A DNA stretch of 64,000 nucleotides, from assembly GCF_000731675.1 (NCBI RefSeq), contig NZ_JMIT01000001.1, positions 743,526 through 807,525 on the forward strand, read 5' to 3'. Source of the DNA: Pseudomonas capeferrum (GTDB taxonomy: Bacteria; Pseudomonadota; Gammaproteobacteria; Pseudomonadales; Pseudomonadaceae). Made by a program: the position numbers and the translations under genes. Below are positions 22,931 through 44,469 of this stretch, piece after piece; the first letter of the stretch is position 1, and each line of letters starts with the position of its first letter. The notes under the pieces are model-generated. The model was given only the letters and a program-made list of their open reading frames with translations. It ran no database searches and was not told the origin of the DNA.

Positions 22931-22954
22931 GATGGGCTGCGCAGCAGCCCCATC
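22931..22954 (+). terminator. Hairpin after mdcM
   Basis: Near-perfect inverted repeat GATGGGCTGC / GCAGCCCCATC with a 3-nt loop, 4 bp after the mdcM stop. There is no T-run, so termination strength is uncertain. Position and symmetry suggest the end of the mdc transcript. Confidence 0.55.
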
Positions 22955-22992
22955 CCCCGAATCGGGGAAAGCCGTTGGGGAATCCTCCCCAA
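22953..22992. promoter_or_regulatory. Candidate activator-binding palindromes upstream of mcoA
   Basis: Two inverted repeats lie 50-90 bp upstream of the sigma-54 promoter: TCCCCCGAATCGGGGA at 22953-22968 and TTGGGGAATCCTCCCCAA at 22975-22992. The first closely matches palindromes upstream of the second sigma-54 promoter at 34696, so a common enhancer-binding protein is inferred. They could alternatively be terminator hairpins of the mdc operon, but neither is followed by a T-run. Confidence 0.45.
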
Positions 22993-23042: not shown

Positions 23043-23058
23043 TGGCATATACCTTGCT
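23043..23058 (+). promoter_or_regulatory. Sigma-54 promoter of the mcoA operon
   Basis: TGGCAT-N5-TTGCT, with the invariant GG (23044-23045) and GC (23056-23057) separated by exactly 10 bp. It lies 40 bp upstream of the mcoA ATG, leaving a short leader containing the GGAGG ribosome-binding site. Mn oxidation in P. putida GB-1 is known to need the sigma-54-type activator MnxR, which fits. Confidence 0.8.
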
Positions 23059-30969: not shown

Positions 30970-31658
30970 ACGCCAAGCATGCTTTTACACGGCTGGGCCT
31001 GAGCCTGGCGCTGCCACTGATGTTGTCCAGCAACCTGGCCCTGGCCCACGCCGGGCATGACCACGGCGGCCCTGCCGAGCAACCGCCCGCCGCGCGACAG
31101 GAGAAGGCCAGCTTGCGCTTCGCCGATGTCTCGCTGCTCGACCAGGACGGCATGCCGGTGCGCCTGGAGAAGGACCTGGTCGGGGATCACCTGGTGGTGA
31201 TGGGGTTCATCTACACCAGCTGCACCACGGTGTGCCCAGTGGTGTCGTCGATCATGGGCAAGGTCCAGCAGCAGTTGGGCGGCCGTGTCGGCGATGAGAT
31301 CCACCTGGTGTCGATCAGCGTCGACCCGCAGCGCGATGACGCCAAGCGCCTGCAGCACTACGCCAAGGCCTTTCAGAAAGGCCCAGGCTGGAGCTGGCTG
31401 ACCGGTACGCCGTACGCCATCACCGAAACCCTCAAAGGCCTGGGCAGCTTCAGCGCCGACCTGAGCCAGCACCCGCCGCTGATCCTGGTGGGTGATGGCC
31501 GCAGCGGGCACTGGACCCGCTACTACGGCTTCACCGACCCGACGGTATTGGTCGCGGAGATCAACCGCCTGAGCGCCCGCCGGGTGCATGCCAAAAGCAC
31601 GGCCATTGCCGAGCACAGCGCCGAACCCATCGCCGACCATAACGAGGTGCAACCATGA
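30966..31658 (+). CDS. SCO1/SenC-family copper protein
   Basis: A 230-aa thioredoxin-fold SCO protein. A signal peptide (LGLSLALPLMLSSNLALAHA) is followed by a His-rich start of the mature protein (HAGHDHGG). The copper-binding CxxxC is in YTSCTTVCPVV (about residues 84-88), and a downstream His (SQHPPLILVGDG, about residue 170) completes the typical Cys-Cys-His site. SCO proteins load or redox-prime copper sites in the periplasm. The operon position behind a multicopper oxidase suggests McoA as the client. Overlaps both neighbours by 4 bp. Confidence 0.92.
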   Translation: MNAKHAFTRLGLSLALPLMLSSNLALAHAGHDHGGPAEQPPAARQEKASLRFADVSLLDQDGMPVRLEKDLVGDHLVVMGFIYTSCTTVCPVVSSIMGKVQQQLGGRVGDEIHLVSISVDPQRDDAKRLQHYAKAFQKGPGWSWLTGTPYAITETLKGLGSFSADLSQHPPLILVGDGRSGHWTRYYGFTDPTVLVAEINRLSARRVHAKSTAIAEHSAEPIADHNEVQP

Positions 31659-32320
31659 GCCATTCGACCTCTCGCCGCGTCGGTATGCGCAGTTTCGACT
31701 GGCTGGTATTGGGCGGCTGCCTGTGGATTCTCGCCTCGGTGGCCTTCGCCCATGACGGCCATGCGCCCCAGGCCCCCGAACCACAGCCCGCGCCCCAGGC
31801 GATGAGCAGTGGCGGCGGTACCCGCGATGCGCAGACCTGGTTCACCGATACCGTGCTCAAGGACCAGAACGGCCGCGAGCTGCGCTTTTACAGTGATGTG
31901 CTGAAGGACAAGGTGGTGATGCTCAACGTGATCTTCACCCACTGCACCGACGCCTGCCCGCTGATCACCCGCAAACTGCGGGAGGTGCGTGAGGCCATGG
32001 GGCCGGTTTTGGCAGGGCAGGTGACCTTCGTCTCGATCAGCAGCGACCCGCTCAACGACACCCCGGCGGCGCTCAAGGCCTTTGCCCAGAAGCAGGGTGT
32101 GGATGGCCCCAACTGGTTGTTCCTGACGGGCGACAAGGCCAGTGTCGACCTGGTACTGGGCCGTATCGGCCAGTTCCTGCCCAGCCCCGAGCAGCATTCC
32201 ACGCAACTGATTGCCGGTGACGTGGCAGGCAAGCGCTGGAGCAAGATCCGCCCGGATGCACCACCTGTGGCGATCGCCCAGCGCATGCAGCTGCTGACCC
32301 AACCCCTGGCGGGTCGGTGA
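31655..32320 (+). CDS. SCO1/SenC-family copper protein (second copy)
   Basis: A 221-aa SCO-family protein with an N-terminal membrane or signal segment (FDWLVLGGCLWILASVAFAHD). CxxxC is in FTHCTDACPLI (about residues 97-101), with a candidate third ligand His in EQHSTQLIAGDVAG near residue 181. It is divergent from the first SCO protein beyond the motifs, so it is not a recent duplication. Two different SCO proteins may serve different copper sites or separate delivery and thiol reduction. Overlaps its neighbours by 4 bp. Confidence 0.92.
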   Translation: MSHSTSRRVGMRSFDWLVLGGCLWILASVAFAHDGHAPQAPEPQPAPQAMSSGGGTRDAQTWFTDTVLKDQNGRELRFYSDVLKDKVVMLNVIFTHCTDACPLITRKLREVREAMGPVLAGQVTFVSISSDPLNDTPAALKAFAQKQGVDGPNWLFLTGDKASVDLVLGRIGQFLPSPEQHSTQLIAGDVAGKRWSKIRPDAPPVAIAQRMQLLTQPLAGR

Positions 32321-33870
32321 ACATCATGAGTGCAGGCGGGTTTGGCCGCGCATACAACGCCCTGCTGTTGACGCTAGGTTTAAGCGTTGCCAGCTCAGCC
32401 TTCGCCCTTGACCTCACCGAGCACGAACAGGCTGGCAAACGCCTGTACCGCGAAGGCCTGTCAAGCAGTGACGCGCAATTGCTGGCGCGGGTGGGCGCCA
32501 GCGACATGAGCGTGCCGGCCAGCGTGCTGCCCTGCGCCAGTTGCCACGGCAGCGACGGGCGCGGCCGCGCCGAGGGCGGTGTTCGCCCACCTAGCCTCGA
32601 CTGGCAGCGCCTGGCACTGGGGCAGGGCGAGCGCCAGGCCAACGGGCGCAGTTACCCGGGTTACACTGACGCCAGCCTTGCCAGGGCGATCCAGCGGGGC
32701 GTGGACCCTGCCGGCAACCACCTCGACACCGCCATGCCGCGTTTCGAACTGACCCTGGCCGACCAGCGCAACCTCACGGCCTATCTCAAACGCCTGGCCG
32801 AGGACCGCGACCCGGGCGTGGAGGAGGGCGTACTGCGGCTGGGGACGTTGCTCCCCGCTTCTGGGCCGCTGGCCGAAGCGGGGCATGTGGTGCGCGCGGT
32901 GCTTGAAGACGGCTTGGCGCAACTCAATCAGCAAGGCGGTGTGCATGGGCGGCGCCTGGAGCTGGTGGTGCTCGACCCCGGCAGCGACCCAAACAGCGCC
33001 GAACAGGCCCTGCGCCAGCTGTTGGAACACGAGCAGGTGTTCAGCCTGATCACTCCCCTGGCACCGATGCTTGACCAGCGTCTGGCGCCCGTGCTGGCGC
33101 AACAGAATGTGCCGCTGATCGGCAGCACCCCGCGCAGTGGCGGCAGTGCGCAGATCTTCGACCCTCTGCCGGGCTTGCCCGTGCAACTGCTGAGCCTGGC
33201 CGGCCATGCCCGCGAAGCCTTGGGCCTCGGCCCGGATGGCCTGCGCGTGGTCTACGCCGGTAACGAGCAAGCGCCGCTGGCCGAGCAGGTGCGCGAGCAG
33301 CTTGTGCAGCAAGGCTGGGCACCTGGCGCCATCCAGGCCTTCGATGGCCAGGCCGTGGCCGGCCAGGGCATCGTCTTTCTCGGCCGCGCCCAGGCCTTTG
33401 CCGACCTGGCCACAGCGCTGCAGGCGGCAGGTCGCAAACCGTACTTGTTCGCGGCCTCCAGCCAGGTGGTCGGGGGGCTGGCAAGCCTGTCTGAGCAGTG
33501 GTCGCAACGGGTCTTCCTGGCTTATCCGTTCGTACCCGAAGACTGGACCGAACAGGGCCTGGCAACCCTGGCCGGCCTGCAGCAACGCCAGGGCCTCGAC
33601 CCACGCCAGGCGTCCTTGCAGGTCAATACCCTGTGCGCCCTGCGCCTGCTTACCGAAGCCCTCAAGCAGATTGGCCGGGATGCCAGCCGCGAGCAGTTGA
33701 TCACGGCCCTGGAAGGCCTGCACGATGTCACGACCGGCCTGACCCCGGCCCTGGGCTTTGGCCCCGGCCGTCGGCAGGGCATGGCCGGTGCCCATGTGGT
33801 GGCAGTGGCCTTGCCCGGGCCGCGATTCACCTCGGTTACCCCATACCGGCCTGTGCCGGACGCCCTTTGA
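32317..33870 (+). CDS. Cytochrome c / periplasmic ligand-binding (type I SBP) fusion protein
   Basis: A 517-aa exported protein with two parts. After a signal peptide (ALLLTLGLSVASSAFAL), a c-type cytochrome domain (about residues 28-155) shows one heme site PCASCHGSDGRGR, and a downstream Met such as in LDTAMPRFELT may be the axial ligand. From about residue 165 to the end it resembles ABC-type branched-chain amino-acid/leucine-binding periplasmic proteins (LRLGTLLPASGPLAEAGHVVRAVLEDG, LELVVLDPGSDPNSAEQALRQLL). The start is GTG 32317, overlapping the previous stop, or ATG 32326. A possible electron acceptor for the oxidase is inferred from position. MofC of Leptothrix is also reported to be heme-binding. 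Confidence 0.85.
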   Translation: MNIMSAGGFGRAYNALLLTLGLSVASSAFALDLTEHEQAGKRLYREGLSSSDAQLLARVGASDMSVPASVLPCASCHGSDGRGRAEGGVRPPSLDWQRLALGQGERQANGRSYPGYTDASLARAIQRGVDPAGNHLDTAMPRFELTLADQRNLTAYLKRLAEDRDPGVEEGVLRLGTLLPASGPLAEAGHVVRAVLEDGLAQLNQQGGVHGRRLELVVLDPGSDPNSAEQALRQLLEHEQVFSLITPLAPMLDQRLAPVLAQQNVPLIGSTPRSGGSAQIFDPLPGLPVQLLSLAGHAREALGLGPDGLRVVYAGNEQAPLAEQVREQLVQQGWAPGAIQAFDGQAVAGQGIVFLGRAQAFADLATALQAAGRKPYLFAASSQVVGGLASLSEQWSQRVFLAYPFVPEDWTEQGLATLAGLQQRQGLDPRQASLQVNTLCALRLLTEALKQIGRDASREQLITALEGLHDVTTGLTPALGFGPGRRQGMAGAHVVAVALPGPRFTSVTPYRPVPDAL

Positions 33871-33882
33871 GCGGAGGTTGCC

Positions 33883-34524
33883 ATGCGTACCCTGTTGTTG
33901 TGCCTGTTGTTGCTGACCACCACGGCGAGCTGGGCCGATGTGCCGGCAGCGCGGGTGAACGGTGTGCAGATCGATGCCATGCGCCTGGAGCGTTACTTCA
34001 CGGAATACCTCGAAGCCCAGGGGCGGGCGGTAGCCAGCATCCGCAACCCGACGCTGTACAAACGCCTGCGTGACCAGGCCTTGGATGAGCTGATCGACAA
34101 GGAGCTGTTGTGGCAGGAAGCCCAGCGCCAGGGCATCGCCATCAGTGACGCACAGGTAGCTGCCCATGTCGGCGAAGTGGAGGCTGCATTCGGCAGCCCG
34201 ACAGTGTTCGAGCGGCGGCTGGCGGAGGCGGGTTTCAATAGGGCAGAGTACGCTCAGTACACCCGTCACGAGATGGCAGCCCAGCAGCTGTATGCCCAAC
34301 TGAGTGCGGTCGACGCGCCCAGCGAGGCACAAGTAGAGGCCTTCTACGAGGCCAATCGGCAAACCCTGCAAGGAGCGCAGAACCAAAGTGATAATCCTTC
34401 TGTCATACGAGAACAGGGCCTGCGCTTGGCCAGGGCCACGCTCATCGGGCAATTGCAGGCGCAGGCTCGGCAAACCGTGCGCCAACGTTTGCGCGAATCC
34501 GCTAAAGTGGAAATCGCCGACTGA
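33883..34524 (+). CDS. SurA N-terminal-like periplasmic chaperone (no parvulin domain)
   Basis: A 213-aa exported protein. A signal peptide (TLLLCLLLLTTTASWAD) is followed by VPAARVNGVQIDAMRLERYF and a helical SurA_N-like region with QALDELIDKELLWQEAQRQGI and FYEANRQT. The parvulin peptidyl-prolyl isomerase core is not visible, so it is probably a holdase/chaperone rather than an active isomerase. Leptothrix mofB, next to mofA, has been described as isomerase-like, which fits a role in folding the giant oxidase. Last gene of the mcoA operon. Confidence 0.85.
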   Translation: MRTLLLCLLLLTTTASWADVPAARVNGVQIDAMRLERYFTEYLEAQGRAVASIRNPTLYKRLRDQALDELIDKELLWQEAQRQGIAISDAQVAAHVGEVEAAFGSPTVFERRLAEAGFNRAEYAQYTRHEMAAQQLYAQLSAVDAPSEAQVEAFYEANRQTLQGAQNQSDNPSVIREQGLRLARATLIGQLQAQARQTVRQRLRESAKVEIAD

Positions 34525-34538: not shown

Positions 34539-34600
34539 TTCCCCCAAAGCTGGGGGATAACGACTTGGCAAAGTGCTATCAGGTCCCCCGGATGTGGGGA
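34539..34600. promoter_or_regulatory. Candidate activator-binding palindromes upstream of response regulator
   Basis: Two inverted repeats: TTCCCCCAAAGCTGGGGGA at 34539-34556 and TCCCCCGGATGTGGGGA at 34584-34600. They resemble TCCCCCGAATCGGGGA upstream of the mcoA sigma-54 promoter. They lie about 100-155 bp upstream of the -24 element at 34697, the usual distance for sigma-54 enhancer sites. Not followed by T-runs. Confidence 0.5.
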
Positions 34601-34695: not shown

Positions 34696-34711
34696 TGGCA
34701 CGAAGCCTGCT
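34696..34711 (+). promoter_or_regulatory. Sigma-54 promoter of response regulator/secretion cluster
   Basis: TGGCACG-AAGC-CTGCT with GG (34697-34698) and GC (34709-34710) separated by 10 bp. The -24 part is a perfect consensus. It lies about 62 bp upstream of the response-regulator start and can drive the whole downstream secretion operon. Confidence 0.75.
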
Positions 34712-34772: not shown

Positions 34773-35306
34773 TTGGTGAACAGAGTATTGGTAGTCGATG
34801 ACGAACAGACCCTCGCGCAGAACCTGCAAGCGTATTTGCAGGCGCAAGGCCTGGATGTTCATGTTGCCCACGACGGTGCCAGTGGTATCGAGCAGGCTGA
34901 AAGCCTGGCACCGCAAGTGATCGTGCTGGATTACCGCTTGCCCGACATGGAGGGGTTTCAGGTTCTGGAGACCGTGCGCAAGAACAGGCAGTGCCATTTC
35001 GTGCTGATCACCGCCCACCCGACCGCCGAGGTCCGTGAGCGCGCCGCCGAACTTGGTGTGACCCATGTCCTGTTCAAGCCGTTCCCGTTGGCGGAACTGG
35101 CCCGCGCGATCTTCGACCTGATGGGCATCGAGCGCCGGCGCAGGGCCACGGACAACCCGGCAGAAGGGTTCGTCGAACGACGCCAGACCAGGAACGAATC
35201 GTTCCCCCTGCAGTTGTACGATGGTAGCTGGGTACTGGCCGACCGCCGCCGCAATGGCGCAAAGCCCCCAGGTGCTGACGACGAACAACTGCTCACAGGG
35301 GAATAG
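34773..35306 (+). CDS. Single-domain response regulator
   Basis: A 177-aa receiver-only response regulator. It has the acidic pocket DDE (residues 9-11), the phospho-acceptor Asp53 in VIVLDYRLPDMEG, Thr in VLITAHPT and Lys in VLFKPFP, so all phosphorylation residues are present. After the receiver (about residue 122) comes a short basic and acidic tail with no DNA-binding or enzymatic domain. The start is TTG 34773 or GTG 34776, behind TTGGGGAG. No histidine kinase is adjacent. It probably acts through protein contacts, perhaps on a phosphorelay controlling Mn oxidation or on the secretion machine downstream. Confidence 0.9.
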   Translation: MVNRVLVVDDEQTLAQNLQAYLQAQGLDVHVAHDGASGIEQAESLAPQVIVLDYRLPDMEGFQVLETVRKNRQCHFVLITAHPTAEVRERAAELGVTHVLFKPFPLAELARAIFDLMGIERRRRATDNPAEGFVERRQTRNESFPLQLYDGSWVLADRRRNGAKPPGADDEQLLTGE

Positions 35307-35367
35307 CGGCGCCCGCTACCCTGGCTGAGCCAGCCTGCGACGCGCCCCCTGAGCGGAGTCGCAGGCC

Positions 35368-37071
35368 ATGTCCGAAGCAGTCGATACAGCCGCCACACCC
35401 CTGCAGCCAGCACAGCCACTGTGTGCCTACCCGCGTGAACTGCTGGCCCAGGCCCGTCTGCAAGCCGGTGACGAACGCCTGCTCAACTGCCTGGAACGCC
35501 TGGTCAACGACACCCCAGGCACCTTCACCCACCGCCTGGGCATCACCCTGCATTACCCGGTGCTGCACAGCCAAGCCCTGCTGGCCAGCAGCCCACGCTT
35601 CGACAAGGTCAGCCTGGCCCAGTGCCTGAAACGCGAATTCGTGCTGATCGAGCGCGAAGGCGAACTGCTGGGCGTGTTCGCCGACCCCTTCGACTCTTCG
35701 CGCCTGGCCTGGATCGACGATGTGCTGCAAGGCGCGCCACTGTACCTGGCCCACGCCGCCGAGCTGGCGACGTTTCTGGCCCGCCACGAAGAAAGCTTCC
35801 ATGCCGTCGATGCCCTTGACCACGACAGCGAAGCCAGCAGCGAAAGCGACCCGCTGCAACGCCTGTCGCTGACCAGCATCAGCGAAGACCAGAGCCGGGT
35901 GGTGAAACTGGTCAACTCGACCCTCTACGACGCCCTCAAGCTGCACGCCAGCGACATCCACCTGGGCATGACCGGCCAGGGCCTGACCATCAAGTATCGC
36001 ATCGACGGTGTGCTCAACGGTGCCGGCAAGGCCAGCGGCAGCGCTTTCGCCGACCAGGTGATCTCGCGCATCAAGGTCATGGCCGAGCTCGACATCGGTG
36101 AGAAGCGCGTGCCCCAGGACGGCCGGTTCAAGGTTGCCGTGGGCGAACGGCAGATCGACTTCCGCGTCTCGATCATGCCCAGCATTTTTGGTGAAGACGC
36201 CGTGCTGCGGGTGCTCGACAAACAGGACCTGTCCGACAAGGTCAGCGGTGTGCAGCTGCAGGCCCTGGGGTTTGCCGACGACACCCTGCGCGCCCTGCGC
36301 CGGCTGGCCGCCGAGCCCTACGGCATGATCCTGGTCACCGGCCCCACCGGTAGCGGCAAGACCACCACCCTGTACGCCATGATCAGCGAGATCAACCATG
36401 GCGTGGACAAGATCATCACCATCGAAGACCCGGTCGAATATCAACTGCCCGGTGTGTTGCAGATACCGGTCAACGAGAAGAAGGGCCTGACCTTTGCCCG
36501 CGGCCTGCGTTCGATCCTGCGCCACGACCCGGACAAGATCCTGGTTGGCGAGATCCGCGACCCCGACACCGCACAGATCGCCGTGCAGTCGGCCCTGACC
36601 GGGCACCTGGTGTTCACCACCATTCACGCCAACAACGTCTTCGATGTGATCGGCCGCTTCAGCCAGATGCAGGTCGACCCCTACAGCTTCGTCTCGGCGC
36701 TCAACGCCATCCTGGCCCAGCGCCTGATTCGCCTGGCCTGCCCGCACTGCGCCACAGCCTGCGAGGCGGATGATGAAACCCTGCAGGCCTCAGGCCTGAC
36801 CCGCGCCGCCGTGGCCGGCTGGACGTTTGTCCGCGTCCAGGGTTGCGGGCAGTGCCGCGGCAGTGGCTTTCGCGGCCGCAGTGCCATTGCCGAGCTGCTG
36901 CACCTGGACGACGACCTGCGGCAGATGATCGTCGAACGCCGCCCCCTGTCGCAGATCAAGACACTCGCCTGCCAGCGCGGCCTGCGCTTGCTGCGCGCCT
37001 CGGCCCTGGACCTGGTCCGTGAAGGCCGCACCACCCTTGAGGAGATCAACCGTGTCACATTTATCGCGTGA
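35368..37071 (+). CDS. gspE: GspE/PilB-type secretion ATPase
   Basis: A 567-aa traffic ATPase that powers pseudopilus assembly at the inner membrane. It has an N-terminal domain (about 1-150), Walker A GPTGSGKTTTLY (about 328-339), the Asp-box region IEDPVEYQLPGV, Walker B-like ILVGEIRDPDTAQI, a His-box region TGHLVFTTIHANN, and a tetracysteine zinc site (CPHC and CGQC). ATG 35368 follows a GGAG. It is the first gene of a Gsp-related operon. From memory, P. putida GB-1 has such a pathway (xcm genes) needed to secrete the Mn-oxidising factor. Overlaps the next gene by 20 bp. Confidence 0.93.
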   Translation: MSEAVDTAATPLQPAQPLCAYPRELLAQARLQAGDERLLNCLERLVNDTPGTFTHRLGITLHYPVLHSQALLASSPRFDKVSLAQCLKREFVLIEREGELLGVFADPFDSSRLAWIDDVLQGAPLYLAHAAELATFLARHEESFHAVDALDHDSEASSESDPLQRLSLTSISEDQSRVVKLVNSTLYDALKLHASDIHLGMTGQGLTIKYRIDGVLNGAGKASGSAFADQVISRIKVMAELDIGEKRVPQDGRFKVAVGERQIDFRVSIMPSIFGEDAVLRVLDKQDLSDKVSGVQLQALGFADDTLRALRRLAAEPYGMILVTGPTGSGKTTTLYAMISEINHGVDKIITIEDPVEYQLPGVLQIPVNEKKGLTFARGLRSILRHDPDKILVGEIRDPDTAQIAVQSALTGHLVFTTIHANNVFDVIGRFSQMQVDPYSFVSALNAILAQRLIRLACPHCATACEADDETLQASGLTRAAVAGWTFVRVQGCGQCRGSGFRGRSAIAELLHLDDDLRQMIVERRPLSQIKTLACQRGLRLLRASALDLVREGRTTLEEINRVTFIA

Positions 37072-37846
37072 TCGTGGTGCTCATAGATACTGTGCCGTGC
37101 TCGGCGCCGAGGGTGTAGGCCTGGGCCGCTGGCACGCCAACCAACAGCAGTGGCTAGGCAGCCGCGAGTTCAGCTGCGAGGCGGCCCAACCGGCCTGGGA
37201 GGCCGCCGTCGAGGCGCTGGCCGCGCTGCTTGCCGAGCACGCCGTGCGCGGTGCCCAGTTGCGGGTATTGCTGTCGGCCCGTTACAGCCGCTTCTGCCTG
37301 GTGCCCTGGAGCGATGCCATCGGCCACCCGCGCGAACTCGATGCCTATGCGCGGGCCTGCTTTGAAAACCTCTACGGGCAGTCGCTGGGCGACTGGCGCA
37401 TCGTCCTCTCGCCAGAGCCAGCAGGCGCCGCACGCATTGCCACGGCGCTGCCGGAGGCCTTGCTGCAACGGCTGCAGGCACTGGGGCGGGAAAGCCGGCT
37501 GCAGCTGCGTTCGGTGCAGCCGTACCTGATGGCCGCCTACAACCGTTGCTCGGCGCAGCTGGGGCAGGGCGACTTCCTGTTCGTCCTCGCCGAGCCACGC
37601 CGCAGCGTGCTGCTGCTGGCCGCCGGGGGGGCCTGGCAGCAGGTGCTGGCGCAAGGCTGTGCCGACAACGACCAGGCCCTGCAGGCGCTGATCGAACGCA
37701 CCTGCGAGTTGTACGGGGAGCATCTGCCACGGGTGTACCTGCATGCGCCCGGCCGGGGCGACGTGCCGCAATTGGCGGCGGTGCAGCTGTGCCAACCGGC
37801 CAGCGAAGCCGACCCGTTGTGCGCCATGTGGCGGGCGGTGGCCTGA
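37052..37846 (+). CDS. PilM/GspL cytoplasmic-domain-like secretion protein
   Basis: A 264-aa cytoplasmic protein without membrane segments. The start is GTG 37052, directly after GAGGAGATCAACC, overlapping the gspE end by 20 bp. Similarity is weak, but features such as a possible actin-like fold (FCLVPWSD, AAYNRCSAQLGQGDFLFVLAEP) and its position between GspE and PilN/O-like proteins fit a PilM/GspL-type assembly factor. Expected to couple the ATPase to the inner-membrane complex. Assignment rests mainly on synteny. Confidence 0.75.
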   Translation: MSHLSRDRGAHRYCAVLGAEGVGLGRWHANQQQWLGSREFSCEAAQPAWEAAVEALAALLAEHAVRGAQLRVLLSARYSRFCLVPWSDAIGHPRELDAYARACFENLYGQSLGDWRIVLSPEPAGAARIATALPEALLQRLQALGRESRLQLRSVQPYLMAAYNRCSAQLGQGDFLFVLAEPRRSVLLLAAGGAWQQVLAQGCADNDQALQALIERTCELYGEHLPRVYLHAPGRGDVPQLAAVQLCQPASEADPLCAMWRAVA

Positions 37847-37847
37847 C

Positions 37848-38390
37848 ATGCGCCGCCTCGACCTGGAATTCCAGCCCCGGCGCAGCGGCGCCTTGGCCTG
37901 GTCGCTACTGGCCCTGGGTTGCGCCGTGGTGGCCGCCCTGGTGGTGCTGCAACAACGCTTGCAGGTCGAGCAGGTCGACCTGGAAAGCCGCCTGCACAGC
38001 CTGGAACTGCAACTGGGCCGGCGCCCGGCCACTGCGGCCCCGCAAAGCAGTGCTGCCAGCCGCGAACAGGCCGAGCGCCTGGCGCAGATGCGCAGTGTCT
38101 CGCAGCAGCTGCAACGGCCTTGGCAGCAGCTGTTCGCCATGCTCGAAGCGCAGCCGCAGGACGACGTCGCGCTGCTTGGCCTGACCCCGGATGCACGCAA
38201 GGGCCAGGTACGCATCGCCGCCGAGGCGCGCAACCTGGAGGCGATGCTGCAGTACCACCAGCGCCTGGAGGCCAGCGCCGAGCTCAGCGATGTTTCCTTG
38301 CTCAACCACGAGGTGATGGTGGGCCAGCCGGAGCACCCGGTGCGTTTCACCCTTACCGCTACCTGGGAGACCGGCCATGCGCGTCCCTGA
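37848..38390 (+). CDS. PilN-like inner-membrane secretion protein
   Basis: A 180-aa bitopic protein: short cytoplasmic N-terminus (MRRLDLEFQPRRSG), one membrane helix (ALAWSLLALGCAVVAALVVL), then a coiled-coil-like and periplasmic ferredoxin-like region ending with RFTLTATWE. This is the PilN/GspL C-terminal layout. ATG 37848 begins 1 bp after the previous stop. An earlier ORF start is rejected. It overlaps the PilO-like gene by 14 bp. Confidence 0.82.
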   Translation: MRRLDLEFQPRRSGALAWSLLALGCAVVAALVVLQQRLQVEQVDLESRLHSLELQLGRRPATAAPQSSAASREQAERLAQMRSVSQQLQRPWQQLFAMLEAQPQDDVALLGLTPDARKGQVRIAAEARNLEAMLQYHQRLEASAELSDVSLLNHEVMVGQPEHPVRFTLTATWETGHARP

Positions 38391-38940
38391 CCCGCTGAGC
38401 AGCCTGATCATGCAGGAACGCCTGCGCCGCATCGGCCCGGTGGGCCTTGCCGCTGTCGCCGTTGGCCTGCTGGCCGTCGGCGTGGCATTGGCCGCTGTGT
38501 TGCCGCACTGGCAAACCGTGCGCGAACTGCGCGCCAGCGAGGCGGACGCCAGCGTGCAAGTGGGGCGGGTGCAGCGGGGCGAGCTGAAGATCGCGGTCAA
38601 ACCCGAGCAGCAGGCCCTCGACACGCTGCGCCAGCAACTGCCTGGGCAGCCGCAGGCCAGCGAGCTGATCGAGCGCCTGTATCACCTGGCCAGTGCCGAG
38701 CACATCAGCCTGGCACGCGGCGAATATGCCTTGGGCATCGACCCGAAAACCCAGTTGGCGCGCTACCAGATCGTGCTGCCGGTGCGCGGCAGCTATCCGC
38801 AGATCCGCGGCTTCCTCAAGGGCCTGCTGGGCCAGCTGCCAACCTTGGTGCTGGAAGACCTCGAGCTGCAACGCAAACGCATCGGCGACAGCGAGCTCAA
38901 CGCCCGCCTGCGCATGACCCTCTACTTGTCGAGGTCGTGA
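38377..38940 (+). CDS. PilO/GspM-like inner-membrane secretion protein
   Basis: A 187-aa bitopic protein with a single membrane helix (VGLAAVAVGLLAVGVALAAVLP, about residues 22-43), a coiled-coil-like segment, then a compact periplasmic domain (RYQIVLPVRGSYPQIRGFLKGLLGQLPTLVLEDLELQ) of the PilO/GspM type. Together with the PilN-like protein it should form the inner-membrane platform of the export machine. Its TGA overlaps the following ATG by 1 bp. Confidence 0.82.
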   Translation: MRVPDPLSSLIMQERLRRIGPVGLAAVAVGLLAVGVALAAVLPHWQTVRELRASEADASVQVGRVQRGELKIAVKPEQQALDTLRQQLPGQPQASELIERLYHLASAEHISLARGEYALGIDPKTQLARYQIVLPVRGSYPQIRGFLKGLLGQLPTLVLEDLELQRKRIGDSELNARLRMTLYLSRS

Positions 38941-39464
38941 TGAAGACTCAACGTGCGGTGATCTGGGCCGGGTTTCTAGGGCTTTCTGCCGCGTTGGCGT
39001 GGGCGCCGGAGCATTGGTTCGGCCAAGAGGACAGTGTGGGGCTGTTCGCGGGCAAGCCCGCTGCTACAGGTTCTGTGAGTACCCCTGACCGTGTGGAAGC
39101 GGACACATCGGGGCGCGGAGCTGCCGCGAAGGGGCCGGAACGGGTTTCTACCGATCTGTTCCCGAGCCAGCGCTGGAGCAAACCGCAGACCCTGGCCACC
39201 GTCACCGAACAACCGGTCATTGCCACCCCTGTGGTGGTTGCCGCACCCACCGCCCCGGCGCTGCCTTTCCAGTTCGTCGGCCGCCTGGGCGATCGCGACG
39301 ACCTGCAGGTGTTTCTGCAGAGCGGCGAAAAACTGTACGTCGTGCGCCAGGGCGACGTCATCGAAGACACCTACCGCCTCGATCGGGTCTCGGCCAACGA
39401 GCTGGACCTGGTCTACCTGCCTTTGCACCAGTCGCAGACCTTGTCTGTCGGGAGCGCACCATGA
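38940..39464 (+). CDS. PilP/GspC-like periplasmic linker protein with REP-derived insert
   Basis: A 174-aa protein with an N-terminal membrane segment (AVIWAGFLGLSAALAWAPEHWF), a low-complexity linker, and a C-terminal homology-region-like domain (PFQFVGRLGDRDDLQVFLQSGEKLYVVRQGDVI, about residues 113-145) typical of PilP/GspC proteins that contact the secretin. The linker (about residues 33-65) contains the amino acids encoded by a REP-like palindrome at 39045-39070, in frame. ATG 38940 is used, with a GTG one codon upstream as the alternative. Overlaps the secretin gene by 4 bp. Confidence 0.85.
   Translation: MKTQRAVIWAGFLGLSAALAWAPEHWFGQEDSVGLFAGKPAATGSVSTPDRVEADTSGRGAAAKGPERVSTDLFPSQRWSKPQTLATVTEQPVIATPVVVAAPTAPALPFQFVGRLGDRDDLQVFLQSGEKLYVVRQGDVIEDTYRLDRVSANELDLVYLPLHQSQTLSVGSAP
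39045..39070. repeat. REP-like palindrome inside a coding region
   Basis: TTCGCGGGCAAGCCCGCTGC followed by TACAGG is the core of the common P. putida REP element, here within the linker of the PilP/GspC-like gene and in frame. REP elements are normally extragenic. Confidence 0.75.
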
Positions 39465-41326
39465 AGTCGTCAAAGCTGTGCAAGCCTGCTCCGTTCCTGC
39501 TTCTGGCGCTGTGCGTGGCCATCGCAGGCTGTGGCTCCAGTGCGGTACGTGAAGACAGCGCAGAACTGATGAAGGAGGGGCAGTACGAAGCCGGGATCGC
39601 GCGTCTGGAAGAGGCCCTGCGTGAAGACCCGCGCGACACCGAGCTGAACATCGCCCTGGCCCATGGCCGCCAGGCGGCGGTCGAGGCGCTGCTGAGCCAG
39701 GCCGACAGCGACCGCATCCGCCACGATTTCGCCGGTGCGCGCATGGGCTATGGCCGGGTGCTGAGCATCGAACCGAACAACCGCCGCGCCCAGGAAGGCA
39801 TCCGCCAGCTGGAGCTGATCCGCACCCTCGACGAACGTGTCGCCCTTGGCCAGGCGGCCCTGCGCCAGGGCGACCTGTTCGGCGCCGAGCGCTACATGCG
39901 CGAAGTGCTGCGCCTGGACCCGCAGAACCAGAAGGGCATGACCCTGCGCAGTGACATCGAGAACGTCCAGGCGCGCACCGCGCAGCCGTTCCCGCAGCTG
40001 CGCAGCAAGCTGGAACGCCCGGTGACCCTGGAGTTTCGCGACGCCAACCTGAAGACCATCTTCGAAGTGCTGTCCCAGGTCGCCGGCATCAACTTCATCT
40101 TCGACAAGGACCTGCGCCCGGACATGAAGGCCACCATCTTCGTTCGCGACGTGCGCATCGAGGACGCCGTGGCTCTGCTGCTGGAGCAGAACCAGCTACG
40201 CCAGAAGATCGTCAACGACAACACCCTGATGATCTACCCCGACTCGCCGCAAAAGACCAAGGACTATCAGGAACTGGTCATGCGCACGTTCTACCTGACC
40301 AGCATCGACGCCAACACGGCGCTGAACATGGTCAAGACCATGCTCAAGACCCGTGACGTGTTCGTCGACGAGCGCCTCAACACCCTGACCATGCGCGACA
40401 GCCCCGATGCCGTGCGCATGGCCGAAAAGCTGCTGCAGTCCCAGGACCAGTCCAACCCCGAGGTGGTGCTGGAAGTGGAGGTGATGGAGGTGGCCACTTC
40501 GCGCATCCTCGACCTCGGCCTGCAATGGCCCAACACCTTCGGCGTGCTGACCTCCGACGGCAAGTCGGTCAGCGTGCTCGACCAACTGCGCGGCATCGAC
40601 TCCAGCCGCATCAGCATCTCGCCGGCGCCGCAGGCCAAGATCAATGCCCAGGACAAAGACATCAACACCCTGGCAAGCCCGGTGATTCGCGTCAGCAACC
40701 GCGAGCAGGCGCGTATCCACATTGGCCAGCGGGTGCCGATCATCAGCGCCACCTCGGTGCCTTCGACCCAGGGCCCGGTGATTACCGAGAGTGTCACCTA
40801 CCTGGATGTGGGCTTGAAGCTCGAAGTGCAGCCGACCGTGCACTTGAACAACGAAGTGGCGATCAAGATCGCACTCGAAGTGAGCAACGCCACCCCGCTG
40901 GAAGCCACGCGCCAGGGCACCATCCCGGTCCAGGTCGATACCCGCAACGCCCAGACCAGCCTGCGCCTGCACGACGGCGAAACCCAGGTGCTGGCCGGGC
41001 TGGTGCGCAACGACCACAACGCCAGCGGCAACAAGATCCCGGGCCTTGGCGACATTCCCGGCCTGGGCCGGTTGTTCGGCAGCAACAAGGACGACATGAG
41101 CAAGTCTGAACTGGTGCTGGCGATCACCCCGCGCATCGTCCGCAACCTGCCGTACCAGAGCCCGTCTGACATGGAGTTCGCCACCGGCACCGAGTCGAGC
41201 CTGCAAGTGCGGCAAATGGCGCCACTGCCACCGATGGAGGTGCCGGGCACTGCGCCGTCCAGTGACAAGCCGGTGGTCGAAAGCCAGATGGCCGTAGTGC
41301 CCGCCAACGGGAGCCCACGGCCATGA
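39461..41326 (+). CDS. gspD: Secretin (GspD-family) lipoprotein with TPR-like N-terminus
   Basis: A 621-aa outer-membrane secretin. The N-terminus is a lipoprotein signal (ALCVAIAGCGSS, lipobox Cys near residue 24). A TPR-like helical region follows (about 30-175: SAELMKEGQYEAGIARLEEAL). Then come N-domains (VTLEFRDANLKTIFEVLSQVAG) and the secretin core with VPIISATSVPSTQGPVITESVTYLDVGLKLEVQPTV and the C-terminal GNKIPGLGDIPGLGRLFG signature. The TPR plus secretin layout is that of T4P/Tad/MSHA-related secretins rather than classical Xcp GspD. It forms the export pore for the pathway. Overlaps the neighbouring genes by 4 bp. Confidence 0.92.
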   Translation: MKSSKLCKPAPFLLLALCVAIAGCGSSAVREDSAELMKEGQYEAGIARLEEALREDPRDTELNIALAHGRQAAVEALLSQADSDRIRHDFAGARMGYGRVLSIEPNNRRAQEGIRQLELIRTLDERVALGQAALRQGDLFGAERYMREVLRLDPQNQKGMTLRSDIENVQARTAQPFPQLRSKLERPVTLEFRDANLKTIFEVLSQVAGINFIFDKDLRPDMKATIFVRDVRIEDAVALLLEQNQLRQKIVNDNTLMIYPDSPQKTKDYQELVMRTFYLTSIDANTALNMVKTMLKTRDVFVDERLNTLTMRDSPDAVRMAEKLLQSQDQSNPEVVLEVEVMEVATSRILDLGLQWPNTFGVLTSDGKSVSVLDQLRGIDSSRISISPAPQAKINAQDKDINTLASPVIRVSNREQARIHIGQRVPIISATSVPSTQGPVITESVTYLDVGLKLEVQPTVHLNNEVAIKIALEVSNATPLEATRQGTIPVQVDTRNAQTSLRLHDGETQVLAGLVRNDHNASGNKIPGLGDIPGLGRLFGSNKDDMSKSELVLAITPRIVRNLPYQSPSDMEFATGTESSLQVRQMAPLPPMEVPGTAPSSDKPVVESQMAVVPANGSPRP

Positions 41327-41796
41327 AACGCCGCGTGCAAGGCTTCAGCCTGATCGAGGTGGTGCTGACCCTGGCACTGCTCGGGCTGCTTGCCAGCATG
41401 GCCGCGCCGCTGACCGAAACCGTGGTGCGCCGTGGCAAGGAGCAACAGCTGCGCGAGGCGCTGTACCAGATCCGCGATGCCATCGACGCCTACAAGCGTG
41501 CCTTCGACGCCGGTTACATCGAAAAGCGCCTGGATGCCAGCGGTTACCCGCCAAACCTGCAGGTGCTGGTCGAAGGCGTGCGCGATGTGCGCAGTGCCAA
41601 AGGGGCCAAGTTCTACTTCCTGCGGCGCATCCCCCACGACCCGCTGCTGGCGGCCAAGGATGACGACGAGGGGGCCTGGGGCCTGCGTGCCTACGACAGC
41701 AGCCCCGACAGCCCGCGTGAAGGCGAAGACGTCTTCGACGTGTACTCCAAGGCCCGTGGCAAAGGCCTCAACAACATCCCCTACGGGCAATGGTGA
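41323..41796 (+). CDS. Type II/IV pseudopilin (GspG-like) 1
   Basis: A 157-aa pseudopilin. Prepilin leader MKRRVQG with the cleavage site before FSLIEVVLTLALLGLLASMAAP (Glu at mature position 5), followed by a GspG-like body (EALYQIRDAIDAYKRAFDAGYI, RRIPHDPLL). It needs a prepilin peptidase, which is not encoded in the window and would be supplied elsewhere. ATG overlaps the secretin stop by 4 bp. Confidence 0.9.
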   Translation: MKRRVQGFSLIEVVLTLALLGLLASMAAPLTETVVRRGKEQQLREALYQIRDAIDAYKRAFDAGYIEKRLDASGYPPNLQVLVEGVRDVRSAKGAKFYFLRRIPHDPLLAAKDDDEGAWGLRAYDSSPDSPREGEDVFDVYSKARGKGLNNIPYGQW

Positions 41797-41801
41797 CGGC
41801 C

Positions 41802-42176
41802 ATGAAACGCAGCCAAGGCTTCACCCTGATCGAACTGCTGGTGGTGATGGCGATCATCGCCACGCTGATGACCATCGCCATGCCGCGTTACTTCAACAGC
41901 CTGGAGAGCTCCCGCGAGGCCACGCTGCGCCAGAGCCTGGCGGTGCTGCGCGAGTCGCTGGACCACTTCTACGGCGACACCGGGCACTACCCCGATTCGC
42001 TGGAGCAACTGGTGGAGCTGCGCTACCTGCGCAACACCCCGGTCGACCCGATCACCGAACGCAGCGATGCCTGGCAACTGCTGCCGCCGCCAGAAGGCGT
42101 GGCCGGCGGTGTGGCCGATATCAAGAGCGGTGCTACAGGGAGGGCGCGTGATGGCAGCCTCTATGCCGAATGGTAA
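41802..42176 (+). CDS. Type II/IV pseudopilin (GspG-like) 2
   Basis: A 124-aa pseudopilin with leader MKRSQG and cleavage before FTLIELLVVMAIIATLMTIAMP (Glu5 present). The body shows GDTGHYPDSLEQLVELRYL and VDPITERSDAWQLL, the expected GspG-type core. An in-frame ATG at 41790 would give a longer leader, but 41802 matches the family. Overlaps the third pseudopilin gene by 26 bp. Confidence 0.9.
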   Translation: MKRSQGFTLIELLVVMAIIATLMTIAMPRYFNSLESSREATLRQSLAVLRESLDHFYGDTGHYPDSLEQLVELRYLRNTPVDPITERSDAWQLLPPPEGVAGGVADIKSGATGRARDGSLYAEW

Positions 42177-42678
42177 GGCCTGTGCCGGCTTCACCTACCT
42201 GGGTGTGCTGCTGTTGATTGCGGTCAGCAGCGTGGCCTTGGCCGCCACCGGGACAGTCTGGTCGAGCGTTGCCCGGCGCGATCACGAGCGCCAGTTGCTG
42301 TGGGTGGGCAGCCAGTATGCCCAGGCCCTGCGCAGCTACTACCGCGCCTCGCCGGGTTTGGCCCAGTACCCGCAGGAGCTGGCCGACCTGCTGCAGGACA
42401 ACCGTTTTCCCGAGGCCAAGCGGCATATCCGCAGGCTCTACCCGGACCCGATCACCAACAGCGACGACTGGGGCCTGCTGCGCTCGATCGATGGCCGCAT
42501 CACCGGCGTGCACAGCCGCTCGGATGCCACGCCGTTCAAGCACAGTGGTTTTGCCGCCGAGTGGTCGGGCTTCGAAGGGCTGGAACACTACAGCGACTGG
42601 CAGTTTGTCGCCGAGCAGGCGTTCGCCGACAGCCCCAACGGTGCCCAGCCCCAGGCCGGCGCGGGAGACACGCCATGA
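42151..42678 (+). CDS. Type II/IV pseudopilin-like protein 3 (atypical cleavage region)
   Basis: A 175-aa protein with a pseudopilin-like start: leader MAASMPNGKACAG, then FTYLGVLLLIAVSSVALAATGTVW. The usual Glu5 is absent (Phe-Thr-Tyr-Leu-Gly), as in some minor pseudopilins of GspK type. The body (QYAQALRSYYRASPGLAQYPQELADLL, RRLYPDPITNSDDWGLLRSID) shares the PDPIT/DDWGLL pattern with GspG-like proteins. ATG 42151 has GGGAGG upstream. Overlaps csgE by 4 bp. Confidence 0.85.
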   Translation: MAASMPNGKACAGFTYLGVLLLIAVSSVALAATGTVWSSVARRDHERQLLWVGSQYAQALRSYYRASPGLAQYPQELADLLQDNRFPEAKRHIRRLYPDPITNSDDWGLLRSIDGRITGVHSRSDATPFKHSGFAAEWSGFEGLEHYSDWQFVAEQAFADSPNGAQPQAGAGDTP

Positions 42679-43076
42679 AACGCCTGGCTGCGCTGTGCCT
42701 GAGCCTGCTGCTGGCGGCATCGCCCTGCAGCCTGCTGAAGGCGGCGGAGGAGGACGAGATGATGGGCTTCATCGTCGACAACACCATCTCGCACATCGGC
42801 CACGACTTTTACTACTACTTCGCCGACCGCCTGCGTGCCACCAGCCGCCTGGATTTCAACCTGGTGGTGCGCGAACGCCCGGATGCCCGCTGGGGCAGCC
42901 TGGTTACCGTGGAGTTCGAGCGCGAAGTGCTGTACCGGCGCTTCCTGCCACCCAACACCACGGAACTCAAAGACGAGGCTGTCGCGGCCGCCGACCTGGT
43001 CAAGCAGCAGATCATTCAACGCAAGCTGCAACGCTTGCTGCAGGACACCACCGATCTGGAGAGGGACGAGCTATGA
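42675..43076 (+). CDS. csgE: CsgE-like curli secretion accessory protein
   Basis: A 133-aa exported protein of the CsgE family. It has a signal peptide (LAALCLSLLLAASPCSLLKAAE), then EMMGFIVDNTISHIGHDFYYYFADRLRA and the characteristic LVVRERPDARWGSLVTVEFEREVLYRRFLPP with VKQQIIQRKLQRLLQDT at the end. In curli systems CsgE is the periplasmic gate-keeper of the CsgG pore. Here it is co-transcribed with pseudopilin genes and overlaps them and csgF by 4 bp. No amyloid subunit gene (csgA/csgB) is visible. Confidence 0.92.
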   Translation: MKRLAALCLSLLLAASPCSLLKAAEEDEMMGFIVDNTISHIGHDFYYYFADRLRATSRLDFNLVVRERPDARWGSLVTVEFEREVLYRRFLPPNTTELKDEAVAAADLVKQQIIQRKLQRLLQDTTDLERDEL

Positions 43077-43486
43077 AAACCCGCATTCCCCATTGCATCG
43101 CCGCCTGCCTGTTGGCCAGCGCCTGTGCCGCCCAGGCCACGGAGCTGGTGTACACCCCGGTCAACCCGGCCTTCGGTGGCAACCCGCTCAACGGCACCTG
43201 GCTGCTGAACAACGCCCAGGCACAGAACGACTACGACGACCCCGACCTCAAGGACCGTGCTTCCGCCTTTTCGGGCACCACGGCCCTGGAGCGCTTCAGC
43301 AACCAGTTGGAGTCGCGAATGCTCTCGCAGTTGCTGGACAACATCAGTAATGGCAGCACGGGCAGCATGGCTACCGATGCCTTCCTGATCGATGTGATCG
43401 ACGACTCGGGTGCCTTGAGCATCAAAGTCACCGACCGCGTCACCGGAGAAATCTCGATCATTGAGGTCAGCGGCCTGAACCCCTGA
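43073..43486 (+). CDS. csgF: CsgF-like curli assembly protein
   Basis: A 137-aa exported protein of the CsgF family. After the signal peptide (CIAACLLASACAAQATE) comes the hallmark N-terminus LVYTPVNPAFGGNPLNGTWLLNNAQAQN, which inserts into the CsgG pore, and a C-terminal region FLIDVIDDSGALSIKVTDRVTGEISIIEV. In curli systems CsgF links the pore to nucleation on the surface. Overlaps csgE by 4 bp. Confidence 0.93.
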   Translation: MKTRIPHCIAACLLASACAAQATELVYTPVNPAFGGNPLNGTWLLNNAQAQNDYDDPDLKDRASAFSGTTALERFSNQLESRMLSQLLDNISNGSTGSMATDAFLIDVIDDSGALSIKVTDRVTGEISIIEVSGLNP

Positions 43487-43519
43487 GAGGGAAGGGCTTT
43501 GAGTTGGGGAGAGAACACC

Positions 43520-44371
43520 ATGAAACGTCTGTTGAGCACATTGCTGATCCTCGCCGCCCTGCACGGCCTGCAAGGCTGCAGCCTGCGCGACCCTATGTCG
43601 GCCGAACAGGACTCGGAAACCCCGACCCTGACCCCTCGGGCCTCGACCTACTACGACCTGATCAACATGCCACGCCCCAAAGGCCGGCTGATGGCGGTGG
43701 TGTATGGCTTCCGTGACCAGACTGGGCAGTACAAGCCGACCCCGGCCAGTTCGTTCTCGACCAGCGTCACCCAGGGCGCGGCCAGCATGTTGATGGATGC
43801 CCTGAGTGCCAGTGGCTGGTTCGTGGTGCTGGAGCGTGAAGGCCTGCAGAACCTGCTGACCGAGCGCAAGATCATCCGCGCCTCGCAGAAGAAGCCGGAT
43901 GTGGCGGAGAACATCATGGGTGAGCTGCCACCGCTGCAGGCGGCCAACCTGATGCTTGAAGGCGGCATCATCGCCTACGACACCAACGTGCGCAGTGGCG
44001 GGGAAGGGGCGCGTTACCTGGGCATCGACATCTCCCGCGAATATCGGGTCGACCAGGTGACCGTGAACCTGCGCGCGGTGGACGTACGCACCGGGCAGGT
44101 GCTGGCCAACGTGATGACCAGCAAGACCATCTATTCGGTGGGGCGCAGTGCGGGGGTGTTCAAGTTCATCGAGTTCAAGAAGTTGCTGGAGGCGGAGGTG
44201 GGGTACACCACCAATGAACCTGCGCAGCTTTGTGTGTTGTCGGCGATCGAGGCGGCGGTGGGGCATTTGCTGGCGCAGGGGATCGAGCGGCGGTTGTGGC
44301 AGGTGCAGGGGGATGCCGACAAGGGGGCGGTGGAGAAGTACCTGAGTCAGTCTCAGTCTCAGTTGCAGTGA
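43520..44371 (+). CDS. csgG: CsgG-like outer-membrane secretion lipoprotein
   Basis: A 283-aa CsgG-family lipoprotein. The lipobox is HGLQGC (Cys near residue 19). Conserved features are AVVYGFRDQTGQYKP, the GWFVVLEREGLQNLLTERKIIR helix region and LMLEGGIIAYDTN, and DIVTGQV-like DVRTGQVLANV near residues 195-205. Nine-fold CsgG pores export unfolded curli subunits. Here the gene ends the gsp-csgEF operon, so the pore may work together with, or instead of, the upstream secretin. ATG 43520 follows GAGAGAACACC. The ORF could extend upstream but lacks a signal there. Confidence 0.93.
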   Translation: MKRLLSTLLILAALHGLQGCSLRDPMSAEQDSETPTLTPRASTYYDLINMPRPKGRLMAVVYGFRDQTGQYKPTPASSFSTSVTQGAASMLMDALSASGWFVVLEREGLQNLLTERKIIRASQKKPDVAENIMGELPPLQAANLMLEGGIIAYDTNVRSGGEGARYLGIDISREYRVDQVTVNLRAVDVRTGQVLANVMTSKTIYSVGRSAGVFKFIEFKKLLEAEVGYTTNEPAQLCVLSAIEAAVGHLLAQGIERRLWQVQGDADKGAVEKYLSQSQSQLQ

Positions 44372-44431
44372 TCGGGGCCGTGATTCTGATTTTTGCTTCG
44401 TCGGTGGATTTTCAGCGCTTTGGATATCGAA

Positions 44432-44469
44432 CGCTGAAGCTCCCCTGCAATGCCCCTGAAGGCCCAAAC
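44432..44469 (+). repeat. Direct repeat, left copy, flanking truncated MipA-like gene
   Basis: A roughly 38-bp sequence beginning CGCTGAAGCTCCCCTGCAAT and ending ...GAAGGCCCAAAC. It is nearly matched by 45397-45434, about 965 bp away, with the truncated outer-membrane gene between. It could be an insertion or recombination scar. Confidence 0.6.

Follow-up and report, generated by a model that had tools for sequence, protein, structure and literature searches.

A type II-like secretion operon that ends in csgEFG in Pseudomonas capeferrum: two probable export modules associated with the manganese oxidase MnxG

We analysed a 64,000-nucleotide stretch of the Pseudomonas capeferrum genome (the window; bases 743526-807525 of contig C1, NZ_JMIT01000001.1, in a 5.94-Mb genome), in which the genes of a type II-like secretion machine run directly into csgE, csgF and csgG, the genes of the curli exporter. 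Twelve genes between 35368 and 44371 were annotated, with the help of Pfam and NCBIfam, as an assembly ATPase, PilM-, PilN-, PilO- and PilP-like proteins, a secretin with TPR repeats, two pseudopilins, XcmX, CsgE, CsgF and CsgG (Table 1). From its layout we take this cluster to be the Xcm locus known from P. putida GB-1. A role of the Xcm pathway in secretion of the manganese-oxidising factor of that strain was published in 2003 (de Vrind et al., PMID 12581354). Its xcm and csg genes are reported to be linked, with xcmX flanked by two pseudopilin genes and by csg homologues (csmE, csmF and csmG), and xcmT1-xcmS to form a separate two-gene operon. The xcm/csg linkage itself is not new; what is added here, in a genome that has the reported GB-1 layout, is joint inheritance with csgBA and mnxG and a palindrome common to these operons.

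A sequence-only reading of the window had described twelve close-set genes and an ATGA overlap between the last pseudopilin-like gene, xcmX, and csgE, and both stand. Gaps between neighbours from gspE to csgG range from -104 to +33 bases, several gene starts being uncertain, and ATGA overlaps join xcmX to csgE at 42675 and csgE to csgF at 43073. The gene identities given in that reading held in part: Pfam recovers GspE, PilN, the PilO/GspM-like protein, the TPR-secretin, two pseudopilins and csgEFG, but the PilM- and PilP-like proteins and the third pseudopilin have no Pfam match. Among GspC/GspL-type inner-membrane proteins, family matches are thus limited to the PilN- and PilO/GspM-like ones. 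XcmX lacks Glu at +5 in all 12 aligned sequences, four of them from a sister system described below, as GspK-type pseudopilins likewise do; its predicted structure, with a mean predicted local distance difference test score (pLDDT) of 63.6, matched no solved structure at E <= 0.001. The PilN- and PilO-like proteins and the MshEN domain of the ATPase recall MSHA/type IVa pilus assembly, from which the system differs in having gspG and gspF as a separate gene pair in the genome. A simple scan of 34400-44700 showed no sigma-70-type promoter and no terminator on the + strand, and the xcm-csg genes probably form one operon that would be read as a single transcript. Its start had been placed at gspE. 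Since sigma-54-type sites lie before the response-regulator gene and none before gspE or csgE, we place the promoter upstream of 34773, where palindromes also occur, and the response-regulator gene, one gene before gspE, is probably the first of the operon.

Table 1. Features of the mnxG and xcm-csg operons in the window (positions counted from its first base).
Feature	Position	Strand	Basis or remark
Palindrome CCCCCGAATCGGGG, candidate activator site	22954..22967	.	upstream of mnxG
Sigma-54-type -24/-12 site TGGCATATACCTTGCT of mnxG	23043..23058	+	score 21.5 of 23
mnxG, manganese-oxidising multicopper oxidase, 1959 aa	23080..28959	+	NF041487 equivalog 3873 bits, cut-off 3100
Beta-propeller protein of mnxG operon	28978..30969	+	same place as in published mnxG operon (excerpts of PMC8218464, PMC11409713)
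SCO-type copper chaperone	30966..31658	+	open reading frame (ORF); named only from order of published mnxG operon (excerpt of PMC11409713)
Second SCO-type copper chaperone	31655..32320	+	ORF; named only from published operon order (excerpt of PMC11409713)
Cytochrome c + periplasmic-binding-protein fusion	32317..33870	+	PF00034, PF13458
SurA-like periplasmic chaperone	33883..34524	+	PF13624
First palindrome of pair	34541..34556	.	upstream of xcm-csg operon
Second palindrome of pair	34585..34599	.	upstream of xcm-csg operon
Sigma-54-type site TGGCACGAAGCCTGCT of xcm-csg operon	34696..34711	+	score 21
Receiver-domain response regulator	34773..35306	+	PF00072; probable first operon gene, 61 bases before gspE
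gspE/pilB-type assembly ATPase	35368..37071	+	PF00437 407.8 bits; under NCBIfam GspE equivalog cut-off
PilM-like protein	37019..37846	+	no Pfam/NCBIfam match; named from place and likeness to relatives; start uncertain
PilN-like protein	37743..38390	+	PF05137, slightly below cut-off; start uncertain
PilO/GspM-like protein	38377..38940	+	PF10741, PF04350
PilP/GspC-like protein	38937..39464	+	no Pfam/NCBIfam match; named from place and likeness to relatives
TPR + secretin-domain protein	39461..41326	+	PF00263, PF03958, PF07660, TPR; under GspD equivalog cut-off
Pseudopilin 1	41323..41796	+	PF07963 (N_methyl motif)
Pseudopilin 2	41790..42176	+	PF07963 (N_methyl motif)
xcmX, pseudopilin-like	42148..42678	+	G-F cleavage site, no Glu at +5; no Pfam match
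csgE	42675..43076	+	PF10627 133.7 bits
csgF	43073..43486	+	PF10614; aligns across nearly whole length with solved CsgF
csgG, curli outer-membrane pore lipoprotein	43520..44371	+	PF03783 275 bits; E 2.5e-83 vs solved CsgG

The operon of a giant multicopper oxidase lies beside the xcm-csg operon. The oxidase had been taken for mcoA, an identity that we rejected on its NF041487 equivalog score, which makes it MnxG. The operon corresponds to the P. putida GB-1 mnxG operon as given in excerpts of PMC8218464 and PMC11409713.

The sequence-only reading had also found no csgA or csgB, no GspF platform protein and no prepilin peptidase. This is correct for the window; for the genome it was rejected, all of these parts having been found outside the window. 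Two adjacent curlin-repeat proteins (PF07012), CsgB and CsgA, are encoded at C1:1191126-1192932, 404 kb from the window's csgG, which is the only copy in the whole genome. There are two prepilin-peptidase genes (PF01478), at C2:1109028 and on C6, and three GspF proteins. One of the latter, XcmS, is encoded at C1:1224047-1225255 (stretch L017; PF00482, under the NCBIfam GspF equivalog cut-off), directly behind the gene for a true GspG, XcmT1 (L017:7626-8054; TIGR01710 194 bits, cut-off 88.85), and this gene pair lies 457 kb from mnxG. Nearby genes encode a lytic transglycosylase, two histidine kinases and a regulator of the NtrC type that contains a sigma-54 activation domain; the kinases and the regulator are read as putative MnxS1, MnxS2 and MnxR. 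Judging from neighbouring ORFs, the other two GspF proteins appear to belong to a separate type II secretion system (T2SS; L018) and to a pilA-pilC-pilD cluster (L019). The genome shares CsgE, CsgF, CsgG and curlin-repeat proteins with the curli system (type VIII, csgBAC/csgDEFG) and differs from it in that csgEFG sit within a T2SS-type operon, with csgBA far away. Two genes directly upstream of csgB (L016:4395-7987) encode exported paralogues, 442 and 755 aa long, and occupy the same place in relatives. Cadherin-like and Ig-like domains are present in the 755-aa protein; the 442-aa protein has no Pfam or NCBIfam match, and its predicted model was unusable (pLDDT 40.6).

Co-occurrence of these parts was followed in a genus sample of 149 Pseudomonas genomes, the window's genome included. 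XcmX matched in 57 of them, 49 at 57-99% identity (strong) and 8 at 34-41% (weak), and MnxG matched in exactly the 49 strong-XcmX genomes. XcmS, searched with the L017 GspF, matched in 58: the 49 and G021 at 60-100%, and the eight weak-XcmX genomes at 43-44%. Curlin repeats were found in 53 genomes, namely the 49 and G020, G068, G113 and G146, with the match in G134, one of the 49, being only a remnant. CsgG-family proteins were present in 94 genomes, many as distant members below 100 bits; 48 of the 49 strong-XcmX genomes, all except G134, have a curli-type csgG no more than 3 kb from xcmX, and the eight weak-XcmX genomes gave no curlin match and no curli-type CsgG. Named genomes were scanned with the Pseudomonas XcmX set, as the XcmX alignment across genera was too varied for this use. 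Among the 80 loci kept from 182 relatives, csgG follows xcmX on the same strand within 2.5 kb in 78 loci. These 80 loci bear Pseudomonas titles, except 'Pantoea sp. Ap-967', 'gamma proteobacterium L18' and 'MAG: Paucimonas sp.'; the first of these (NZ_VWXK01000007.1) has a Pseudomonas-type XcmX at 82% identity, and its name may be wrong. The expectations that the gsp set and csgEFG form a conserved unit in related genomes, and that this unit goes with a manganese oxidase, were thus borne out.

The pieces need not be neighbours to occur together. For the 46 of 49 genomes with both positions listed (G027, G060 and G134 were left out), csgG and the curlin genes lie within 20 kb of each other in 27, are 37-422 kb apart in 8 and are on separate contigs in 11. 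Distances between MnxG and XcmS across the 49 genomes are at most 20 kb in 33 and greater in 9, with separate contigs in 7. Of 61 named loci that extend more than 9 kb downstream, 24 include csgA or csgB. Because csgG and the curlins are often far apart or on separate contigs, linkage alone fails to explain their joint occurrence. In G005 all pieces are gathered in about 32 kb: xcmS-xcmT1 on the - strand, the mnxG operon, the response regulator, xcm, csgEFG, and then csgA, csgB and two further genes on the opposite strand. In G015 the same pieces occupy about 40 kb, with mnxR, mnxS2, a 927-aa multicopper oxidase gene and mnxS1 between xcmS and csgBA. This last oxidase gene (L063:14849-17632), which with an SCO/cytochrome gene stands between mnxS2 and mnxS1, probably encodes McoA, because an excerpt of PMC11409713 places mcoA between mnxS1 and mnxS2 in two strains.

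Two kinds of candidate control site recur at these operons. A palindrome (like TTCCCCAATnnTGGGGAA; counted with the pattern CCCC-N5..7-GGGG) stands upstream of all four in the window's genome, mnxG, xcm-csgEFG, csgBA and gspG/F, and sigma-54-type -24/-12 sites were found at three, mnxG, xcm-csg and csgBA. The latter were scored with an ad hoc consensus and ad hoc weights (maximum score 23). Upstream of mnxG, 42 of 42 regions reached a score of at least 20, and all 42 at least 21, the window's own included; the set had 43 regions, of which L207 did not align. The corresponding count at a score of at least 20 was 64/79 for the response regulator and 15/26 for the first gene of csgBA (13/23 in a narrower region), against 0/79 for each of the controls, gspE and csgE. 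The palindrome was present upstream of mnxG in 34/42 regions, of the response regulator in 79/79, of the csgBA operon in 17/22 and of xcmT1 in 4/5; control regions gave 2/79 (gspE), 0/80 (secretin), 1/79 (csgE), 0/79 (csgG) and 0/79 (pilM), and shuffles of the same upstream regions 2-6%. Six loci were left out of the csgBA count as too short. Its five misses (L115, L128, L155, L161 and L180) are stretches that stop short of the first gene's start, where the csgBA matches are probably to a paralogous domain; the figure of 17/22 was kept. In 77 of 79 loci the region upstream of the response regulator has a pair of palindromes spaced by 41-45 bases. Within the window palindromes occur at three places only (22954, 34541 and 34585). 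Elsewhere among the scanned stretches of this genome they occur at L016:4220, before csgBA, at L016:7296, in a gene, and at L017:7469, with none in L018, L019 or L072. Of the 11 palindromes in the stretches from G005 and G015, 9 mark the starts of these operons and the other two fall within csgF and mnxG; no strict palindrome precedes the 927-aa oxidase gene of G015. Four curli loci without xcm (L054, L059, L060 and L067) yielded a single palindrome, that of L059, located 1.5 kb upstream of the csg genes. The mnxG promoter of GB-1 is described in an excerpt of PMC11930936 as having predicted sigma-54 and IHF sites and as responding to Mn(II) in stationary phase.

One explanation of these data is that csgEFG lie in the operon through history only, the joint occurrence reflecting a single inherited island with no functional coupling. 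The pieces do lie near each other in several relatives, all counts come from one genus, and G134 has kept mnxG and xcm without curli. Nevertheless, csgBA and xcmS persist in many genomes where they are unlinked, and the palindrome is found at all four operons of the window's genome, two of them hundreds of kb away. Two decayed loci tell against this explanation as well. L138 in G517 (a metagenome-assembled genome whose completeness is not known) retains xcm, but csgEFG are missing from the locus, and neither curlin nor mnxG was matched. L178 in G518 also has xcm; no csgEFG was found there, on a contig that ends 1.7 kb past xcmX, and a 52-residue mnxG remnant and weak curlin matches lie elsewhere. 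In both, the loss of csgEFG from the locus thus goes with the loss of mnxG or its reduction to a remnant. We consider mere hitch-hiking very unlikely. A further case, G021, retains xcmT1-xcmS and part of xcm, with no match to XcmX, mnxG, curlin or CsgG. These decay cases were found incidentally rather than sampled, and among named genomes mnxG was sought in these cases only.

A second explanation gives CsgG, with CsgE and CsgF, a working role in the Xcm machine, either as another outer-membrane exit or as an accessory pore through which the manganese oxidase would leave; the sequence-only reading had similarly proposed that a CsgG pore acts alongside a type II-like machine or takes over part of it. 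The overlapping xcmX, csgE and csgF genes and their near-constant linkage (48/49 genomes; 78/80 loci) would suit such a role. Xcm-type loci outside the mnxG-linked group speak against it. The XcmX profile matched 10 of 369 Gammaproteobacteria genomes, the window's included, and the nine others hold 10 non-Pseudomonas loci. Their csg, GspG and GspF content was determined by tblastn at E <= 1e-3, since the gene caller used hides overlapping genes. GspG, GspF, the ATPase, the secretin, both pseudopilins and XcmX are present in 10/10, with GspG before GspF in seven and adjoining XcmX in three (L106, L107 and L109), and CsgE, CsgF and CsgG found no match in any of the ten. Four of the eight weak-XcmX Pseudomonas genomes were inspected (sister loci L055, L056, L066 and L070); GspG and GspF are present in 4/4, and tblastn again found no csgE, csgF or csgG. 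A secretin was matched in 13 of these 14 loci, the L070 stretch ending short of its expected place. The 14 Xcm-type loci with GspG and GspF and without csgEFG indicate that CsgG does not belong to the core of this machine. GspG and GspF look native to the Xcm-type operon, and csgEFG look like an addition in its mnxG-linked Pseudomonas version.

Several other observations also tell against CsgG as part of the machine. All eight sister genomes lack matches to curlin and to curli-type CsgG; the xcm operon has its own secretin; GspF, GspG and a peptidase, as well as csgBA, are in the window's genome; and G134 retains xcm and mnxG without csgEFG. With csgEFG decayed in G134 and unmatched in the 14 other loci, CsgG as a core part was rejected, and any working part for it in the Xcm machine is highly improbable.

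In the four sister loci an LPMO_10 gene (PF03067; lytic polysaccharide monooxygenase, LPMO) stands between xcmX and gspG, and a transglycosylase was confirmed in L055 and L070. These LPMO-linked loci may be related to the Txc system, a dedicated T2SS with a nearby cargo gene, which they resemble and which, as an excerpt of PMC12369383 has it, secretes the chitin-binding protein CbpE in P. aeruginosa PA7, with the cargo gene and a two-component system nearby; the sister loci, for their part, have no csgEFG match. At L105 (G361:C48:60001-80000), in another gammaproteobacterial family, the Xcm-type operon adjoins genes for two multicopper-oxidase proteins and for a cadherin-like protein of 1,809 aa; the genome has no MnxG match. 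CbpE is itself an LPMO.

The reverse relation, in which Xcm serves curli, must also be weighed: its pseudopilus or secretin would export a curli-associated adhesin, such as the 442- or 755-aa protein encoded upstream of csgB. Both genes run in tandem with csgB and csgA downstream of the same palindrome and are kept there in relatives, and the cadherin-like and Ig-like domains of the 755-aa protein have a parallel in the 1,809-aa protein beside the L105 operon. On the other hand, four genomes of the genus have curlins and no XcmX match, and the other Xcm-type loci have no adjoining csgEFG. We regard this relation as unlikely.

The reading that we favour, and hold to be probable from the comparison of genomes, is that folded MnxG and the curlins cross the outer membrane by two separate exits, the former through the secretin and the latter through CsgG, and that a single manganese-oxidation regulon governs both. 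It is favoured because csgB and csgA are in the genome, the window's csgG is the sole copy, and CsgG and CsgF align with their solved counterparts; because gspG and gspF lie near the putative MnxS1, MnxS2 and MnxR genes, and strong XcmX, MnxG, XcmS and curlins co-occur, also where unlinked; and because palindromes and sigma-54-type sites lie upstream and the pieces are clustered in G005 and G015. The xcm-csg operon would hold two export modules behind one promoter. The Xcm module, consisting of GspE, the PilMNOP-like proteins, the secretin and the pseudopilins, completed by GspG and GspF from elsewhere and by a shared prepilin peptidase, would act as a type II-like machine, carrying MnxG in folded form, perhaps along with partner proteins, through the outer membrane via the secretin. 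CsgEFG would be an ordinary curli exporter, with CsgB and CsgA from the other operon leaving unfolded via CsgG. If csgEFG were captured behind the xcm promoter and csgBA came to have the same control sites, both modules would be made together. A sigma-54 activator at the common palindrome would switch on mnxG, xcm-csgEFG, csgBA and probably xcmT1-xcmS, and the cells would then produce manganese oxidase and an amyloid matrix simultaneously. MnxR is the most likely activator because an excerpt of PMC11409713 describes it as a sigma-54-dependent regulator needed for manganese oxidation and reports that an rpoN insertion abolishes manganese oxidation.

Some observations weigh against this two-exit reading. 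G134 retains mnxG and xcm with only a csgE fragment and a csgB remnant, and csgF, csgG and csgA gave no match, which counts against a strict dependence of manganese oxidation on curli. Conversely, L174 in G520 has xcm, curlins and a csgG in two frames, yet no mnxG match. Damaged copies occur among the 49 genomes as well: mnxG has an internal stop in G025 and G127 and xcmX one in G042, and the csgG of G125 is split in two. With every genome drawn from one genus, the counts are not independent, and the Fisher test of co-occurrence ignores relatedness, so that its values are not to be read as probabilities. As for the control sites, xcmT1 has no clear sigma-54 site (a score of at least 20 in 0/5), and its palindrome at L017:7469, 157 bases upstream, falls at the start of, or within, the annotated divergent transglycosylase gene. 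The sigma-54 signal of csgBA is weaker, about 5% of shuffles of that set reaching 20, and the strict palindrome is missing from 8 of 42 mnxG upstream regions. The three palindromes in the window are below the Markov-1 expectation of 7.5, so that their placement alone is notable. Finally, the palindrome was first spotted by eye and then counted partly on the same, related sequences.

We put forward, as a tentative extension, that manganese biomineralisation in Pseudomonas could be a single sigma-54 programme in which an activator at TTCCCC-N6-GGGGAA turns on the oxidase, the type II-like machine and the whole curli system, presumably replacing CsgD control, with the enzyme secreted into, and the oxide laid on, an amyloid matrix of the same cells. 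If oxidase, secretion machine and amyloid matrix are one regulated trait, the purpose of manganese oxidation becomes testable with single mutants, curli exporters inside a type II-like operon are explained without a new secretion mechanism, and a short DNA site can be used to find further members of the programme.

Parts of this picture are in print. The Xcm cluster of GB-1 and KT2440 is called a T2SS in an excerpt of PMC4509608, and csgEFG and csgAB of P. putida strains are described as two clusters in one of PMC3056050. The excerpted text of PMC3521004 reports no csgD near csg operons of Pseudomonas other than P. stutzeri and treats Fap as a functional-amyloid system of Pseudomonas. Among the matches listed from the open-licence literature, neither the joint inheritance with mnxG and csgBA nor the common palindrome was found in print, and no paper linked curli with manganese oxidation; the excerpted PMC3056050 treats both in separate sections. 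The word curli is missing from the main texts of PMC4509608, PMC8218464, PMC11409713 and PMC11930936. In gene content, Fap differs from curli.

Three loci among the relatives have features of their own. L054 (G085:C4:272000-291500) has a second mnxG-like gene (73% identity) and a propeller gene, divergent from a second curli operon of csgF, a csgA-like gene, csgG and a csgB-like gene; no xcm genes were seen in the stretch, which is another pairing of mnxG with curli. At L118 (P. pudica 20-MO00628-0), the csgE alignment at 10453-10923 spans 157 columns versus 133 residues, an apparent insertion. At L058 (G057:C1:2343000-2362000), an intact csgG is followed downstream by extra csgG fragments, and an ORF between the fragments with low GC content at third codon positions (GC3) suggests an insertion.

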